This document shows, in pieces, positions 19,717 to 25,815 of a DNA stretch of 64,000 nucleotides. The DNA lies in the NCBI RefSeq assembly GCF_021631985.1, contig NZ_CP070225.1, positions 2,170,001-2,234,000 on the forward strand, given 5' to 3'. Below the pieces are notes generated by a model. That model was not told where the DNA came from, made no database searches, and saw nothing but the letters and a program-made list of their open reading frames with translations. A program made the translations under genes and the position numbers. The first letter of the stretch is position 1. The number at the start of each line of letters is the position of its first letter. The DNA is from Sandaracinus amylolyticus. Its GTDB lineage: Bacteria > Myxococcota_A > Polyangia > Polyangiales > Sandaracinaceae.

Positions 19717-22179
19717 ATGGTCCGCGCGCTCCGCGTGCGCGCCCGCCCTCATCCTCGCGATCCCAGCCCGCGCGTCGCGATCGCGATCGGTGTGCTCGCG
19801 CTCGCGGCGGCGGTCGCGAGCGTCATGCCGCAGCTCCACGCGAACACGTGGATCTTCCGCGACGGGCGCTTCTACGTGAACGTCGCGACGACGATCGTCG
19901 AGGACCTCACGCTCGATCAGCACGCGTTCGCGTCGTCCTGGTACACCGGCACGCTCGGCTGGAACCGCGATCTCGATCCCGGCTGGAGCAACGTCGCGCT
20001 CGGCGCGCGCGGCGAGCACTGGCCGAAGCACCCGTGGATCCACCCGCTGATCGCGAGCCCGGTGTACTTCGCGCTCGGGCTGCCCGGGACGCTCGCGTGG
20101 AACCTGCTGATGTTCGCGCTGATCGCGAGCGGCTTGTACCGCTTCGCGCGCGCGTACGCGCCACCGGCGCCCGCCGCGCTCGCGGTCGCGCTCTTCGTGA
20201 TGGGCACCGCGATCCTGCAGTCGGCCTACGACTTCAGCGTCGACGTGCTGATGCTCGCGGCGTTCGCGCAGGGGCTCGCGGCGGTGCTCGTGGGACGCGG
20301 CGTGCTCGCGGGGGCGTGCATCGCGCTCTGCGTGATCATCAAGCCGACCGCGCTGATGTTGATGCCCGCGCTGGTGCTGACGATCGCGGAGCGGCGCGAC
20401 GGGACGACGCTGCGGCGATCCCTCGCGGCCGGCACGATCGGGCTGCTCACGTACGCGGGGATCAACTGGTGGATGTACGGGCGGCCCTGGTGGTCGGGGT
20501 ACAACCGCACGCTGGTCACGCAGGGCGGTCGCCCCGTCGTCGCCGATCACCTCGATGCGTTCGCGACGCCCTTCGCCGAAGGTTTCGACCGCATGTGGAG
20601 CGGGTACTACGGGCTGGTCCACACGTTCACCGCGATGGTGATCGCGGCGCCCGGCCTGATCGTGCTGCTGCGGCGCCGTCCGCTGCACGCGATCGGCGCG
20701 ATCCTCGGCGTGGCCGCGAGCCTGCTGGTGTTCGCGAAGTACGCGTACGAAGGGCATCGCTTCCACTGGCCCGCGCTCGCGCTGCTGGTGCCGTCGATCG
20801 CGGTCACGCTCGAGGTGATCGAGCACGCGGCGCGGGCGATCGTGATGCGGATGCGGCGGGTGTCGCATGCGCCGCGCAGCGCGGGGCTCGTGGCGGCGAT
20901 CGCGATCGCCGGGGGCGCGCTGGTCGCGCTGCCCTTCGGGCCGCGGCCCGAGGCGCGCGTGCTCGCGTCGGGCGCGTGGGGCGAGCGCGCGATGGAGCTC
21001 GCGCGTGCGATCGGGCTCGAGGGCACGGGCGCCGCGGTCGCGGTGGTGCTGGTGCACCTGGTGCTCGCGGGGCTGCTCGCCGCGCGCACCACGCGGATCC
21101 TCGAGCGCGTGGTGCCCTCGCCGATCGCCGCGTTCGCGATCGGGGCGTGCGCGCTGGTGCCCGAGGTGCGCGAGGCGTGCCTCGCGGGCGGGCCGGTGCT
21201 GGCGACGAGCGCGCTGCTCGCGCTCGGGCTCGAGCGGCTCTGCGCCGATCGTCGGGTGATCGCCGCGGTCGCGATCGCGCTCGCGATGATCGTGTGGGCG
21301 GTCGCGCCGAGCGACGGCGAGCCTGCGTCGGCGCTCACGACGCTCGCGAGGAGCTTCGACGAGCCCTCGGCGATCCGTCTGATCGCGCCGTGGATCGCGA
21401 TCGCGCTCCCCGGTCTGGTGATCGCGGCGCGACGCGAAGCGCGCACCGGGCTCGCGTTGCTCGTGCTCGCGATCGTCGCCGTGTTTCCCCGCGCGGGATC
21501 GTGGGCGCCGATCACGACCATCGCGCTCGCGGCGCCCGCCGCGGTGAGCGCCGATGCGATCGCGACGTGGATCGCGGATCGTGCGCGCGGGATCGACGCG
21601 CGCCGCGCGGGCGTGCTGGTGCTCGCGAGCATCGCGGCGCTGCTGGTGATCGGCGGTGTGCGTCGCGTGGTGCAGGCGCGCGAGCCGTTCCGCGTCGCGT
21701 CGTACGAGGGCGTGCGGCGCGCGGTCGTGATGCACGGCGAGGTGCCCTGCGATTTCCTCGCGTGGGAGCACTTGAGCTGGGAGTGCTCGCACTTCGACAG
21801 CGGGCTCTACGGGATGGTCGGGCTCGCGGTCTCGGATCCGCCGCGCGTCGGTGGCGAGCCGCGCGAGCTGATGGTGGTGCCGACGGGCCGCTCGGGGCAG
21901 GAGCGACGCGTCATCTGGGACGACGCGCGCGCGGGGCGCGAGCTCGCGATCCATTGGGCCGTGCCCGACGGGCTGCGGGGTGATGCGCTCGTCTTGGTGC
22001 GCGTCGACGAGCGCGAGGTCGGCCGCTTCGAGGTGCCGGCGCGCGACGACGCGACGATCCACGAGCTCGTGCTCGCCACGCCGGGCGTGGGTGACACCGC
22101 GCGCCTCGAGATCGCGGTCATGCCGAGCGCGGGACGACGGCACCAGGCGACCGTCGCGCTCGACGCGATCTGGCGCTAG
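19717..22179 (+). CDS. Large polytopic membrane protein, GT-C glycosyltransferase-like
   Basis: 820 aa, ATG at 19717. The first transmembrane helix (residues 20-38) is followed by a periplasmic loop with DGRFYVNVATTIVEDLTLDQH, the position where GT-C transferases place an acidic catalytic residue (here WIFRDGRFYVN). About a dozen further helices follow, with long hydrophobic blocks such as GAAVAVVLVHLVLAGLLAA, and the last 170 residues are a soluble domain rich in Arg, Asp and beta strands. The topology resembles the PMT/ArnT superfamily that transfers sugars from polyprenyl phosphates, but no PMT signature is clear. The 3' end overlaps the convergent histidine-kinase gene by four bases. Class is moderate confidence, substrate unknown. 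Confidence 0.6.
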   Translation: MVRALRVRARPHPRDPSPRVAIAIGVLALAAAVASVMPQLHANTWIFRDGRFYVNVATTIVEDLTLDQHAFASSWYTGTLGWNRDLDPGWSNVALGARGEHWPKHPWIHPLIASPVYFALGLPGTLAWNLLMFALIASGLYRFARAYAPPAPAALAVALFVMGTAILQSAYDFSVDVLMLAAFAQGLAAVLVGRGVLAGACIALCVIIKPTALMLMPALVLTIAERRDGTTLRRSLAAGTIGLLTYAGINWWMYGRPWWSGYNRTLVTQGGRPVVADHLDAFATPFAEGFDRMWSGYYGLVHTFTAMVIAAPGLIVLLRRRPLHAIGAILGVAASLLVFAKYAYEGHRFHWPALALLVPSIAVTLEVIEHAARAIVMRMRRVSHAPRSAGLVAAIAIAGGALVALPFGPRPEARVLASGAWGERAMELARAIGLEGTGAAVAVVLVHLVLAGLLAARTTRILERVVPSPIAAFAIGACALVPEVREACLAGGPVLATSALLALGLERLCADRRVIAAVAIALAMIVWAVAPSDGEPASALTTLARSFDEPSAIRLIAPWIAIALPGLVIAARREARTGLALLVLAIVAVFPRAGSWAPITTIALAAPAAVSADAIATWIADRARGIDARRAGVLVLASIAALLVIGGVRRVVQAREPFRVASYEGVRRAVVMHGEVPCDFLAWEHLSWECSHFDSGLYGMVGLAVSDPPRVGGEPRELMVVPTGRSGQERRVIWDDARAGRELAIHWAVPDGLRGDALVLVRVDEREVGRFEVPARDDATIHELVLATPGVGDTARLEIAVMPSAGRRHQATVALDAIWR

Positions 22180-23495
22180 CTCGGCGTCCAGCGCGGCAGG
22201 TGCGCGCGCAGGTGCAGGCCGCGCTCGCTGGGCACGATCTCGACGCGTCCGCCGTGCGCGGTGGCGACGTGCGCGATCAGCGCGAGGCCGATGCCGTGGC
22301 CCGGTGTGCCCGAGGCGCGCGCGGCGCGCGAGCGATAGAACGCATCGAACACCCGCGCGCGATCCTCCGTGGCGATCCCGGGGCCGCGATCGCGCACGTC
22401 GATCCGAGCCTCGTCGCCCGCCAGCGTCACCTCGACGTCCACCACGTCGTCCGAGAACTTCAGGGCGTTCGAGAGCGCGTTCGAGATCAGCGCGTCGAGC
22501 AGCGCGGCGTCGCCCGAGACGATCACGTCGTCTGCGACCGATGTGCGGACCCGCGATGCATCGGGAAGACGATCGATCACCTCGCGCACGACATCACCCA
22601 GGTCGATCGCTTCCGCGTGCGCACGATCGATCGGCTCGGCGCGCGCGAGCACGAGCAAGCGCTGCACGAGCTCGACGAGCCGCGCGACCTGGGCACGCGT
22701 GCGCGCGATCGCCTCGGGATCGGAGCGCTCGTCGAGCAGCTCGAGCTCGCCCGCGACGCTCGCGAGCGGCGTGCGCAGCTCGTGCGCCGCGTTCGACGCG
22801 AAGCTCCGCGCCTGCGCGAGCGCGACCGCGAGCCGCTCGACGAGCTCGGCGATCGCGGCGCGGAGATCCTCGAGCTCCGCGTCGTGCTCCGGCGCGGCGA
22901 TGCGATCCACGCGCGGCGCGCCGGGATCGATCGCGCGCACCCGATCGCGCAGGGCGCTCAGCGGCGCGAGCGCGACGCCTGCGATCCGCGCGGCCGAGGC
23001 ACCGCCCGCGAGCGCGCCCACCAGCGCGCCCGCGAGCAGCGCGATCACGAACAGCGATCGATGATCCCGCGCGGCGCCTTCGCTCGCAGCGAGGGTGAGG
23101 CGGCGCGCGCCGTACGAGACGGTGCAGGCGCGCAGCGAGCCCACGTCCGCGCACGACCCCGGCGGGAGCGGAGAGAGCTGCGCGTCGCCGGCGAGGACGT
23201 GGCCTTCGTCGTCGTACACCGCGGCGCGCGCGCCCACGACCGGCACCTCGTCGAGCTCGTCCGCGAGGATCGCGCCGAGATCGCTGGGGCCCTCGTCGTC
23301 GTCGGGCTCGTCCTCCTCATCGCGCACCTCGTCGGCGAGCGCGCGCGTGTGCGCGAGCAGCGCGTCGTCGTCGTGCGCGCGCACGAGCTGCTCCGCGGTC
23401 CATCCCGCGACGATCGCGGCGACCGCGCCGGCGAGCGCGGCGGCGCCGGCGCTCGCGAGCGCGACCCGCGCGCGGAGGCTGCGAGGCCCGGGCAC
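22176..23495 (-). CDS. Sensor histidine kinase
   Basis: 439 aa from GTG at 23495, the codon after the response-regulator stop with one base between. Two membrane helices (around residues 10-32 and 150-175) bracket an acidic periplasmic sensor loop of about 110 residues containing DEEDEPDDDEGPSD and one Cys pair (SCADVGSLRAC). HAMP-like linker, then H-box SFASNAAHELRTPLASV (phospho-His), N-box LLDALISNALSNALKF, and G-boxes DVRDRGPGIA and GHGIGLALI. All catalytic elements are intact. It should autophosphorylate in response to an envelope signal and pass phosphate to the upstream-encoded OmpR-type regulator. The very acidic sensor loop would suit metal or cationic ligands, an inference. Confidence 0.93.
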   Translation of the reverse strand: MPGPRSLRARVALASAGAAALAGAVAAIVAGWTAEQLVRAHDDDALLAHTRALADEVRDEEDEPDDDEGPSDLGAILADELDEVPVVGARAAVYDDEGHVLAGDAQLSPLPPGSCADVGSLRACTVSYGARRLTLAASEGAARDHRSLFVIALLAGALVGALAGGASAARIAGVALAPLSALRDRVRAIDPGAPRVDRIAAPEHDAELEDLRAAIAELVERLAVALAQARSFASNAAHELRTPLASVAGELELLDERSDPEAIARTRAQVARLVELVQRLLVLARAEPIDRAHAEAIDLGDVVREVIDRLPDASRVRTSVADDVIVSGDAALLDALISNALSNALKFSDDVVDVEVTLAGDEARIDVRDRGPGIATEDRARVFDAFYRSRAARASGTPGHGIGLALIAHVATAHGGRVEIVPSERGLHLRAHLPRWTPS

Positions 23496-23496
23496 G

Positions 23497-24156
23497 TCAG
23501 GCGTCTCCCAGCGCGTAGCCCTGGCCACGCAGCGTGCGGATGATGCCGGTCCCGAGCTTGCGGCGGATGCGCGCGACGAGGACGTCGAGGCTCGCGCTCG
23601 CTTCGTCGGTGATCTCGCCCCACACCGCGTCGAGGATCTCGCTGCGCGCGATCACGCGCCCGCCGCGCCCCGCGAGCAGCTCGACGATCGCCCACTCGCG
23701 CGTGGTGAGCGGCACCTCCGTTCCGTCGCGCCGCGCGCGCCGCGCGCCGAGATCGAGCTCGACGTCACCCGTGCGATGCACGACGCCGCGATCGACCGGA
23801 CCACGCCGCCCGAGCGCCCGCACGCGCGCGCGCAGCTCGGCGACCGCGAAGGGCTTCGCGACGAAGTCGTCGGCGCCCGCGTCGAGCCCCGCGACGCGCT
23901 GCGGGACCTCGCCGTGCGCGGTGAGCAGCAGGATGGGCACGCGCTCGCCCTCGTCCCGGAGCGCGCGGCACAGCGCGACGCCGGTGCCGTCGGGGAGCTC
24001 GACGTCGAGCACGACCACGTCCGCGCCCTCCGCTCCGAGCGCGCTGCGCGCCTCCGCACACGAGCGCGCTCCGTGGACGCGATGACCGTCGCGCTCGAGC
24101 GCGCGCATCACGAGATCGAGGAGCTCGGGATCGTCGTCGACGACGAGGACGCGCAT
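23497..24156 (-). CDS. OmpR-family response regulator
   Basis: 219 aa, ATG at 24156 (MRVLVVDDDPELLDL). Receiver domain residues 1-115: acidic pair DDD near the start, phospho-acceptor Asp in VVVLDVELPDGTG (about residue 51), Thr in LLLTAHGE and Lys in DDFVAKPFAV. The winged-helix domain (about residues 125-219) ends in TLRGQGYALG, the usual OmpR-family recognition region. It forms an operon with the kinase. Divergent from it at 24280 is a PepSY gene whose upstream region holds two tandem 11-bp-phased repeats expected for this family, so the regulator probably controls that gene and perhaps itself. Confidence 0.95.
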   Translation of the reverse strand: MRVLVVDDDPELLDLVMRALERDGHRVHGARSCAEARSALGAEGADVVVLDVELPDGTGVALCRALRDEGERVPILLLTAHGEVPQRVAGLDAGADDFVAKPFAVAELRARVRALGRRGPVDRGVVHRTGDVELDLGARRARRDGTEVPLTTREWAIVELLAGRGGRVIARSEILDAVWGEITDEASASLDVLVARIRRKLGTGIIRTLRGQGYALGDA

Positions 24157-24198
24157 CGCTCCGTCCTACCGCTCTCCGCTGCTTGTTTCGAGCGGCCC

Positions 24199-24245
24199 GT
24201 TCAGCTCTCGTTCGGGTCGGCCCACGCGTTCAGGCGACGTTCGGG
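24199..24245 (+). promoter_or_regulatory. Two tandem OmpR-type direct-repeat sites
   Basis: GTTCAG at 24199-24204 is followed 11 bp on by GTTCGGG at 24210-24216; the same pair recurs as GTTCAG at 24228-24233 and GTTCGGG at 24239-24245, 29 bp from the first. Head-to-tail half-sites 11 bp apart are what OmpR-family dimers bind. They lie between the response-regulator gene and the PepSY gene, 35 bp before the PepSY start codon. Function is inferred from spacing and location. Confidence 0.7.
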
Positions 24246-24279
24246 CGCGCCCCGCATCGTGACGGCCAGGAGGTCGACG

Positions 24280-24582
24280 ATGAATCGGATCAAGACGGCC
24301 GCGGTGATGCTCTCGATGGTGGTCGCGTTCGGCGCGGGCGGCAGCATCGCGGCGGCGCAGCAGGCCGCGCCGCGTGTCGCGATGGAGGACGCGCGGCGCA
24401 TCGCGCTCGAGCACGTGCCCGGTGGGAACGTCGAGTCGATCGAGCAGGACCACGAGGACGGTCGCGTGGTGTACGAGGTCGAGGTGCGCGACGCGCAGGG
24501 CCGCGAGCACGAGCTCGTGATCGATGCGGACGACGGGCGCGTGATCCGGACCGAGGTGGAGGACGAGCACGACGACGACTGA
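24280..24582 (+). CDS. Exported PepSY-domain protein
   Basis: 100 aa from ATG at 24280, with AGGAGG six bases upstream. Signal peptide MNRIKTAAVMLSMVVAFGAGGSIAAAQQ. The mature part is a single PepSY domain: MEDARRIALEHVPGGNVESI, DGRVVYEVEVRDAQGREHEL, and a tail ADDGRVIRTEVEDEHDDD that ends in an acidic cluster. PepSY proteins are small periplasmic modulators of proteases or sensors. Divergent from a two-component system, it is likely both regulated by that system and able to report to the kinase, a recurring PepSY/two-component arrangement. The paired repeats at 24199-24245 support regulation. Ends just before an unusual double palindrome. Confidence 0.9.
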   Translation: MNRIKTAAVMLSMVVAFGAGGSIAAAQQAAPRVAMEDARRIALEHVPGGNVESIEQDHEDGRVVYEVEVRDAQGREHELVIDADDGRVIRTEVEDEHDDD

Positions 24583-24588
24583 TGGATC

Positions 24589-24622
24589 GCTACGGAATCC
24601 GTAGCGCTACGGATTCCGTAGC
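24589..24622. terminator. 34-bp nested double palindrome between convergent genes
   Basis: Two abutting 17-mers, GCTACGGAATCCGTAGC (24589-24605) and GCTACGGATTCCGTAGC (24606-24622), are exact reverse complements, and each alone is a palindrome with one central base (GCTACGGA / TCCGTAGC). The block fills the gap between the PepSY stop and the GNAT stop. It can form a 17-bp hairpin on either strand or two 8-bp hairpins. A bidirectional terminator is the simplest reading. Confidence 0.65.
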
Positions 24623-25743: not shown

Positions 25744-25815
25744 GTCACCAGAACCGCGCGGCTCACCAGAAGCACGCGGCTCACCAGAAGCACGCGGCTC
25801 ACCAGAAGCAGAGCG
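25744..25815. repeat. Four tandem 18-bp repeats overlapping a gene terminus
   Basis: Unit CTCACCAGAAGCACGCGG; copies at 25744-25761 (diverged), 25762-25779, 25780-25797 (identical) and 25798-25815 (diverged). The last copy contains the stop codon of the minus-strand lipoprotein gene. Because 18 is a multiple of 3, each copy repeats an in-frame Phe-Trp-stop, giving four tandem stops. Confidence 0.85.

Follow-up and report, generated by a model that had tools for sequence, protein, structure and literature searches.

A tandem direct repeat as probable operator between a two-component system and a divergent PepSY gene in Sandaracinus amylolyticus

The window, that is, the whole stretch of 64,000 nucleotides analysed from the genome of Sandaracinus amylolyticus (G000), contains a two-component system encoded on the minus strand. 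The sensor histidine kinase gene (22176..23528, stop included) carries HisKA and HATPase_c domains over cutoff and a weak 2CSK_N match; by comparison with G001, a sister genome in the same genus with the same gene arrangement, the kinase probably begins at the GTG at 23495 instead, one base past the regulator stop. The response regulator gene (23497..24156, minus strand) is of the OmpR/PhoB type, encoding a receiver (Response_reg, 99.2 bits) and a winged-helix Trans_reg_C domain (67.6 bits), both over cutoff, and a putative tandem operator with the 11-bp period of this family can be read from the DNA beside it. BasR/PmrA was found among the nearest solved chains of the regulator. The top NCBIfam models among the matches listed were PmrA for the regulator and cztS_silS_copS for the kinase, and for neither protein did any of the best 25 matches (of 76 and 95 for the two) reach its cutoff. 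The PmrA model NF007928 scored 164.3 (cutoff 330), and the heavy-metal models TIGR01387 (cztR_silR_copR) and TIGR01386 (cztS_silS_copS) scored 143.8 (cutoff 279.2) and 147.7 (cutoff 292.55), respectively.

A PepSY gene encoding 100 amino acids (24280..24582, plus strand; PepSY 56 bits, cutoff 24) is located on the other side of the regulator start, preceded by the Shine-Dalgarno sequence AGGAGG (24268..24273, plus strand), as read from the sequence. Judged by eye, its product has a hydrophobic, signal-peptide-like N-terminus ending in AAAQ; the C-terminus is acidic, and the presumed mature part holds 23 D/E and 8 K/R. The genome encodes two PepSY matches over cutoff. The second (G000:C1:7551015-7551218) has a counterpart in G001, and neither this kinase nor this regulator has a match in its 3.2-kb stretch. 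Just past the PepSY stop, a near-perfect hairpin with a 15-bp stem (24589-24622, RNA z-score -5.1) points towards a convergent acetyltransferase gene, and its identical sequence is present in G001. A scan of the locus for sigma-70 consensus promoters and terminators found nothing; the hairpin was missed because no T run follows it. Further downstream (~25746-25810), a gene without known Pfam family is followed by a short unit resembling CACCAGAAGCACGCGGCT, repeated in tandem.

The intergenic region (24157-24279, 123 bp) extends from the minus-strand regulator ATG at 24156 to the plus-strand PepSY ATG at 24280. A sequence-only reading of this DNA had described two copies of GTTCAG-N5-GTTCGGG, their half-sites phased at 11 bp, 35 bp before a PepSY gene divergent from the regulator and kinase genes. 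The description holds: the copies are exact and lie at 24199-24216 and 24228-24245, the half-site period is 11 bp, the two-component genes (regulator start 24156, minus strand) diverge from the PepSY gene, and 34 bases separate copy 2 from the PepSY ATG. The core of each copy, GTTCAG-N5-GTTCGG, is hereafter called a box. Box 1 (24199..24215) and box 2 (24228..24244) are exact matches on the plus strand, 29 bp apart from start to start in the same orientation, and occupy 43-88 nt upstream of the regulator start codon; box 2 lies where the predicted PepSY promoter would have its -35 element.

All half-sites of both boxes are identical in G001, with no change in 24 bases, compared with 20 changes among 93 other aligned positions (one-sided p 0.006), the latter including the N5 spacers and gap columns, while the six candidate -10 bases, which are unchanged, were set apart. 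The 29-bp register is also identical in G001. In the genome containing the window (10.96 Mb, 2 contigs), GTTCRG-N5-GTTCRG occurs at five sites, two of them at this locus; the broader GTTYRG-N5-GTTYRG returned the identical five sites, and a reversed-pattern control gave one match. The remaining sites (615280, 6758359, and 8606988) are single boxes, of which 8606988 has a counterpart in G001, where three exact boxes exist genome-wide, two of them at this locus. The pair, for which a genome scan had been proposed, is thus unique to this locus in its own genome. When two mismatches were allowed, the window contained four matches against 3.7 expected, which is not above chance, and the two exact ones were these boxes.

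Chance or a non-regulatory origin of the repeats has to be considered, since single exact boxes, present in 278 of the 317 genomes from the class, arise by chance in most of them, so that a lone box is weak evidence. The tandem pair is another matter: among 20,000 dinucleotide shuffles of the 123-bp region, at least one box appeared in nine and two boxes in none, only five genome sites exist with two of them here, the half-sites are conserved, and the box recurs at orthologs. We therefore reject a chance repeat, whose probability we regard as negligible. A large regulon marked by the box was not supported either, per-genome counts being low and exact boxes so widespread in the class.

The search of the 317 genomes for orthologs of the regulator yielded 37 regulators at E <= 1e-58 from 34 genomes, all with flanks (a weaker match, G022, was excluded). 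Among the 35 orthologs outside the genus, 14 have a box of at least 10/12 reading outward from the regulator within 150 bp upstream, and nine have one of at least 11, reaching up to 12/12; in the other 21, no box within these 150 bp scores 10 or more. With gaps of N2-N4 and N6-N9, outward matches of at least 11 were found at N4 alone, in 2/35. Boxes reading towards the regulator reached at least 10 in 2/35 and at least 11 in 0/35. As controls, 79 of 80 regulators from other bacteria were used, one having been dropped with no match or no 150 bp upstream; none of the 79 has a box of at least 10, and other gaps gave at least 11 in one (N3). Because the control hosts are on average less G+C-rich, these 79 are unmatched in composition, and the shuffles and other gaps serve as the matched controls. 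When both strands of the 37 loci (367 kb in total) were scanned, N5 returned 23 matches scoring 11 or more, compared with 6 to 12 for each other gap. Thirteen of the 23 lie beside the regulator (four in the genus), three before RND operons, and seven elsewhere, so the N5 excess comes from promoter positions. The 29-bp tandem register does not hold as a general rule: it was seen at 3 of 20 sites (G000, G001, and, weakly, G276 at 9/12) and is absent from the other 17.

The genes opposite these 14 boxes vary, and their common neighbour is the regulator. The box faces a PepSY gene in G053 (tblastn and profile matches) and a PepSY-like gene just under cutoff in G284; outer-membrane efflux protein genes in G222, G275, G008, G037, G272, and G032; a PAP2 gene in G015a and, by eye, a similar gene in G015b; a deoxyhypusine-synthase-like gene in G265; a partial HAEPLYID match below cutoff in G276; and a phytase-like gene, not PepSY, in G217a. 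The box of G241 has no clear gene opposite. Several further orthologs lie directly 3' of an RND pump gene in the same direction, and regulators in this position lack any box scoring 10 or more in their own upstream region. In G013, G043, and G049, an 11/12 box precedes the first gene of the operon (outer-membrane efflux protein); these RND operons end with the regulator and kinase, placing the box ~5.6 kb from the regulator start. No box was found at the operon start of the other co-directional RND loci, several of whose sequence stretches were too short to reach it. In G248 and G279, an 11/12 box lies 1.1-1.3 kb from the regulator, without clear target.

The box was also found at a PepSY gene away from the two-component genes. 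G276 carries its regulator on contig C78, and on a separate contig, C138, an unlinked PepSY gene (PepSY 35.5 bits, cutoff 24) has a perfect box (L105:1399-1415), CACCTT 10 bp further on, and the ATG at 1477. This stretch was one of 26 PepSY stretches examined (L104-L129), of which six have a kinase or regulator match within ~1.5 kb and four carry a box scoring 11 or more: L104 and L110, which belong to regulator orthologs already counted, L105, and L114, whose box has no known partner. In the tree of regulators, the co-directional RND loci group together, needing four changes against a shuffled mean of 8.0 (0/500 as low). PepSY linkage, scored for six rows that include G284 and G248 (both PepSY-like) and G015a (1 kb distant), also needs four changes, which 68/500 shuffles matched or undercut. 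A single origin of PepSY linkage is not what the tree asks for, though it may still be the case, and the regulated gene may possibly have been gained or swapped several times.

The spacing to the promoter elements was compared across the box sites. At the window locus, CATCGT (24255..24260, plus strand), a candidate weak -10 element of the PepSY gene, starts 10 bp past box 2 and is identical in G001. At the box sites outside the genus, the base at +12 after the box is A in 12/18 and that at +16 is T in 8/18, a count that left out the G248 and G279 sites; with these and the genus included, and the G276 PepSY site excluded, the figures are 13/21 and 10/21. A weak xAxxxT hexamer thus tends to start 11 bases after the box, with 10 bp between. 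The spacing and orientation of box and hexamer are typical of class II activation, as far as promoter sequence can indicate. On the opposite strand, TAGGAC (24163..24168, minus strand), a candidate -10 of the regulator, ends 6 nt before the ATG, predicting a leaderless transcript. At 11/16 box loci (genus included), against 1/21 others (Fisher 5e-5), a TA stands precisely 12 nt upstream of the start codon of the regulator; this fixed position suggests a leaderless regulator transcript, and the regulator promoter is likely leaderless.

Boxes so close to the regulator start bring both promoters within reach, so they might serve repression of the PepSY gene, or mainly autoregulation of the regulator, for which the positively autoregulated dbfQRS offers a precedent (PMC12714742). 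However, the boxes point away from the regulator, and none of those pointing towards it reaches 11; moreover, they also precede RND operons far from the regulator start and the unlinked PepSY gene. We consider repression or autoregulation as the main role unlikely. A different OmpR-family protein, such as PhoB, might bind the boxes instead. A box, GTTCGGCTGACGTTCGG, occurs in a conserved non-coding block with a hairpin at G000:C1:8606988 (L018 ~1501-1517) and G001:C1:9649177 (L103), flanked in both genus members by pstB-like and porin-like genes (named by eye), and this might be a Pho-type site. GTTCA direct repeats also characterise actinobacterial PHO boxes, which likewise favours PhoB as the binding protein. 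However, the regulator described here is the constant neighbour of the box across families, and the 79 other regulators lack it, so that binding by PhoB or another family member seems very improbable.

The sequence-only reading had proposed that the regulator activates the PepSY gene. The half-site conservation in G001, the boxes at orthologs, before RND operons and at the unlinked PepSY gene of G276, and the -10 geometry, all drawn from comparison of sequences, strongly support this control, and we hold that the regulator very probably governs the PepSY promoter. In the mechanism that we infer, a head-to-tail dimer of the phosphorylated regulator would bind each GTTCRG-N5-GTTCRG box. Box 2, 10 bp before the weak -10, would replace the -35 element, and the regulator would activate the PepSY gene in a class II manner rather than repress it, with box 1, 29 bp further upstream, adding to activation. 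The PepSY protein would then be exported and modulate the cognate kinase, most likely damping it and closing the loop. As a whole, this mechanism appears reasonably probable. Its operator would tie the PepSY gene to the adjoining two-component system, and the box recurs in several families and, in one case, at a PepSY gene away from the two-component genes.

Feedback on the kinase, direct or indirect, which the sequence-only reading also proposed as a possibility, is argued by analogy. The extracytoplasmic loop of the kinase is, as had been claimed, strongly acidic (118 residues, 27 D/E, net charge -18). Across 35 of the 37 kinases (those found), mean net loop charge is -10.3 in six PepSY-linked, -4.4 in five OEP-divergent, -4.8 in ten RND co-directional, and -6.1 in 14 other systems. 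Charge follows PepSY linkage only partly, the PepSY-linked G284, G248, and G015a having -3, -6, and -2, respectively, and the lowest charge of all (-21) is that of G217a, where no PepSY gene faces the box; as a mark of PepSY linkage, the acidic loop gave a mixed result. Separately, two cysteines of the loop (residues 126 and 135 of the kinase) show no variation among the 34 orthologs aligned (the 37 loci less two whose kinase was not found and one with an over-long kinase), and they may possibly form a disulfide or a metal site.

The precedent for feedback is DbfQ of Vibrio cholerae. According to PMC12714742, this protein of 135 aa, which has one PepSY domain, binds the DbfS sensor domain with a Kd of 30 nM and biases DbfS to phosphatase, through a predicted contact of basic DbfQ with acidic DbfS residues. 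The same source reports PepSY-two-component neighbourhoods in several phyla at >60 times the chance rate, opposite-strand cases included. On this analogy, feedback of the PepSY protein on the kinase is plausible, with odds that we judge slightly short of even. A plain copy of the DbfQ contact is argued against because the kinase loop and the PepSY protein are both acidic here; coupling through cations, or ion buffering, is an alternative. In the BqsS sensor, the periplasmic domain binds Fe2+, with Glu48 of an ExxE motif described as key ligand (PMC12666569, in part).

The PepSY protein may instead be read as an output: the regulator would answer cation or metal stress and induce an acidic, ion-binding periplasmic protein, affecting the kinase only via less free ion. 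The strong acidity of the PepSY protein fits this, as do the RND operons adjoining regulator orthologs, where the three pumps scanned best match the CusA/CzcA model, below its cutoff, and the metal-binding PepSY protein UipA, encoded beside a two-component system (review PMC8963506, in part). Against it, no metal site was identified, and the kinase-linked DbfQ precedent is left unexplained; we regard the output reading as possible, if not the one to expect. More speculatively, one regulator lineage may keep a fixed GTTCRG-N5-GTTCRG operator and a leaderless opposite-strand promoter while swapping the target among RND metal-type pumps, PepSY, PAP2, and others. In the genus of the window, an acidic PepSY protein would stand in the place of the pump, the acidic loop and PepSY being coupled via shared cations, with PepSY as a cation buffer setting the kinase threshold; this wider scheme is rather doubtful. 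Under regulator control of the PepSY gene, such modules would be linked to relatives of metal-type efflux pump regulators, which suggests cations as a possible signal class for myxobacteria.

No description of this operator or locus was found in the literature searched, many subscription papers lying outside it. The locus belongs to the recently described kind of PepSY-linked two-component modules, and what it adds is an example with a well-defined operator. As in DbfQRS (PMC12714742, in part), a small single-PepSY gene lies beside an OmpR-type regulator and a kinase, within four genes of them. Unlike in DbfQRS, the PepSY gene of the window is divergent with its own two-box promoter, and both the PepSY protein and the kinase loop are acidic, whereas the contact predicted in that system joins basic residues of DbfQ to acidic ones of DbfS. 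UipRS-UipA of Microbacterium likewise has a PepSY gene beside a two-component system and an acidic ion-binding face; UipA differs in being transmembrane with tandem PepSY domains, and according to the review (PMC8963506), UipRS had yet to be demonstrated to act in sensing. Metal-RND regulators of the CusRS/CzcRS/UzcRS type resemble the orthologs that adjoin RND operons with boxes, and UzcRS of Caulobacter, a CusRS homolog, activates an efflux operon (PMC12004947, in part); the window locus differs in having no pump and in heavy-metal two-component scores far below cutoff.

BqsRS/CarRS of Pseudomonas aeruginosa, with PA2658/PA2659, is also a PepSY-linked two-component system, although its two PepSY genes are upstream of the two-component genes. 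According to part of PMC4682146, the BqsR operator TTAAG-N6-TTAAG has the same 11-bp period, its 6-bp spacer is essential, at the bqs promoter its downstream pentamer overlaps the -35 element, and at another promoter additional sites upstream increase output. The half-site here is GTTCRG rather than TTAAG: written as TTCAG-N6-TTCGG, the box differs in 3 of 10 pentamer bases from that operator, and the P. aeruginosa genome has ~400 BqsR-like sites compared with five box sites here. PhoP-box promoters of architectures I and II, as given in part of PMC3335776, likewise place a direct repeat of two N5-spaced hexamers 11-12 nt ahead of the -10, the distance in architecture I being 12 (once 11) nt, with a half-site of (T/G)GTTTA. 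Expression from the ybjX promoter rises >8-fold through a second PhoP box that lies 30 nt upstream in reverse orientation (PMC3335776), while the two boxes described here share one orientation at 29 bp.
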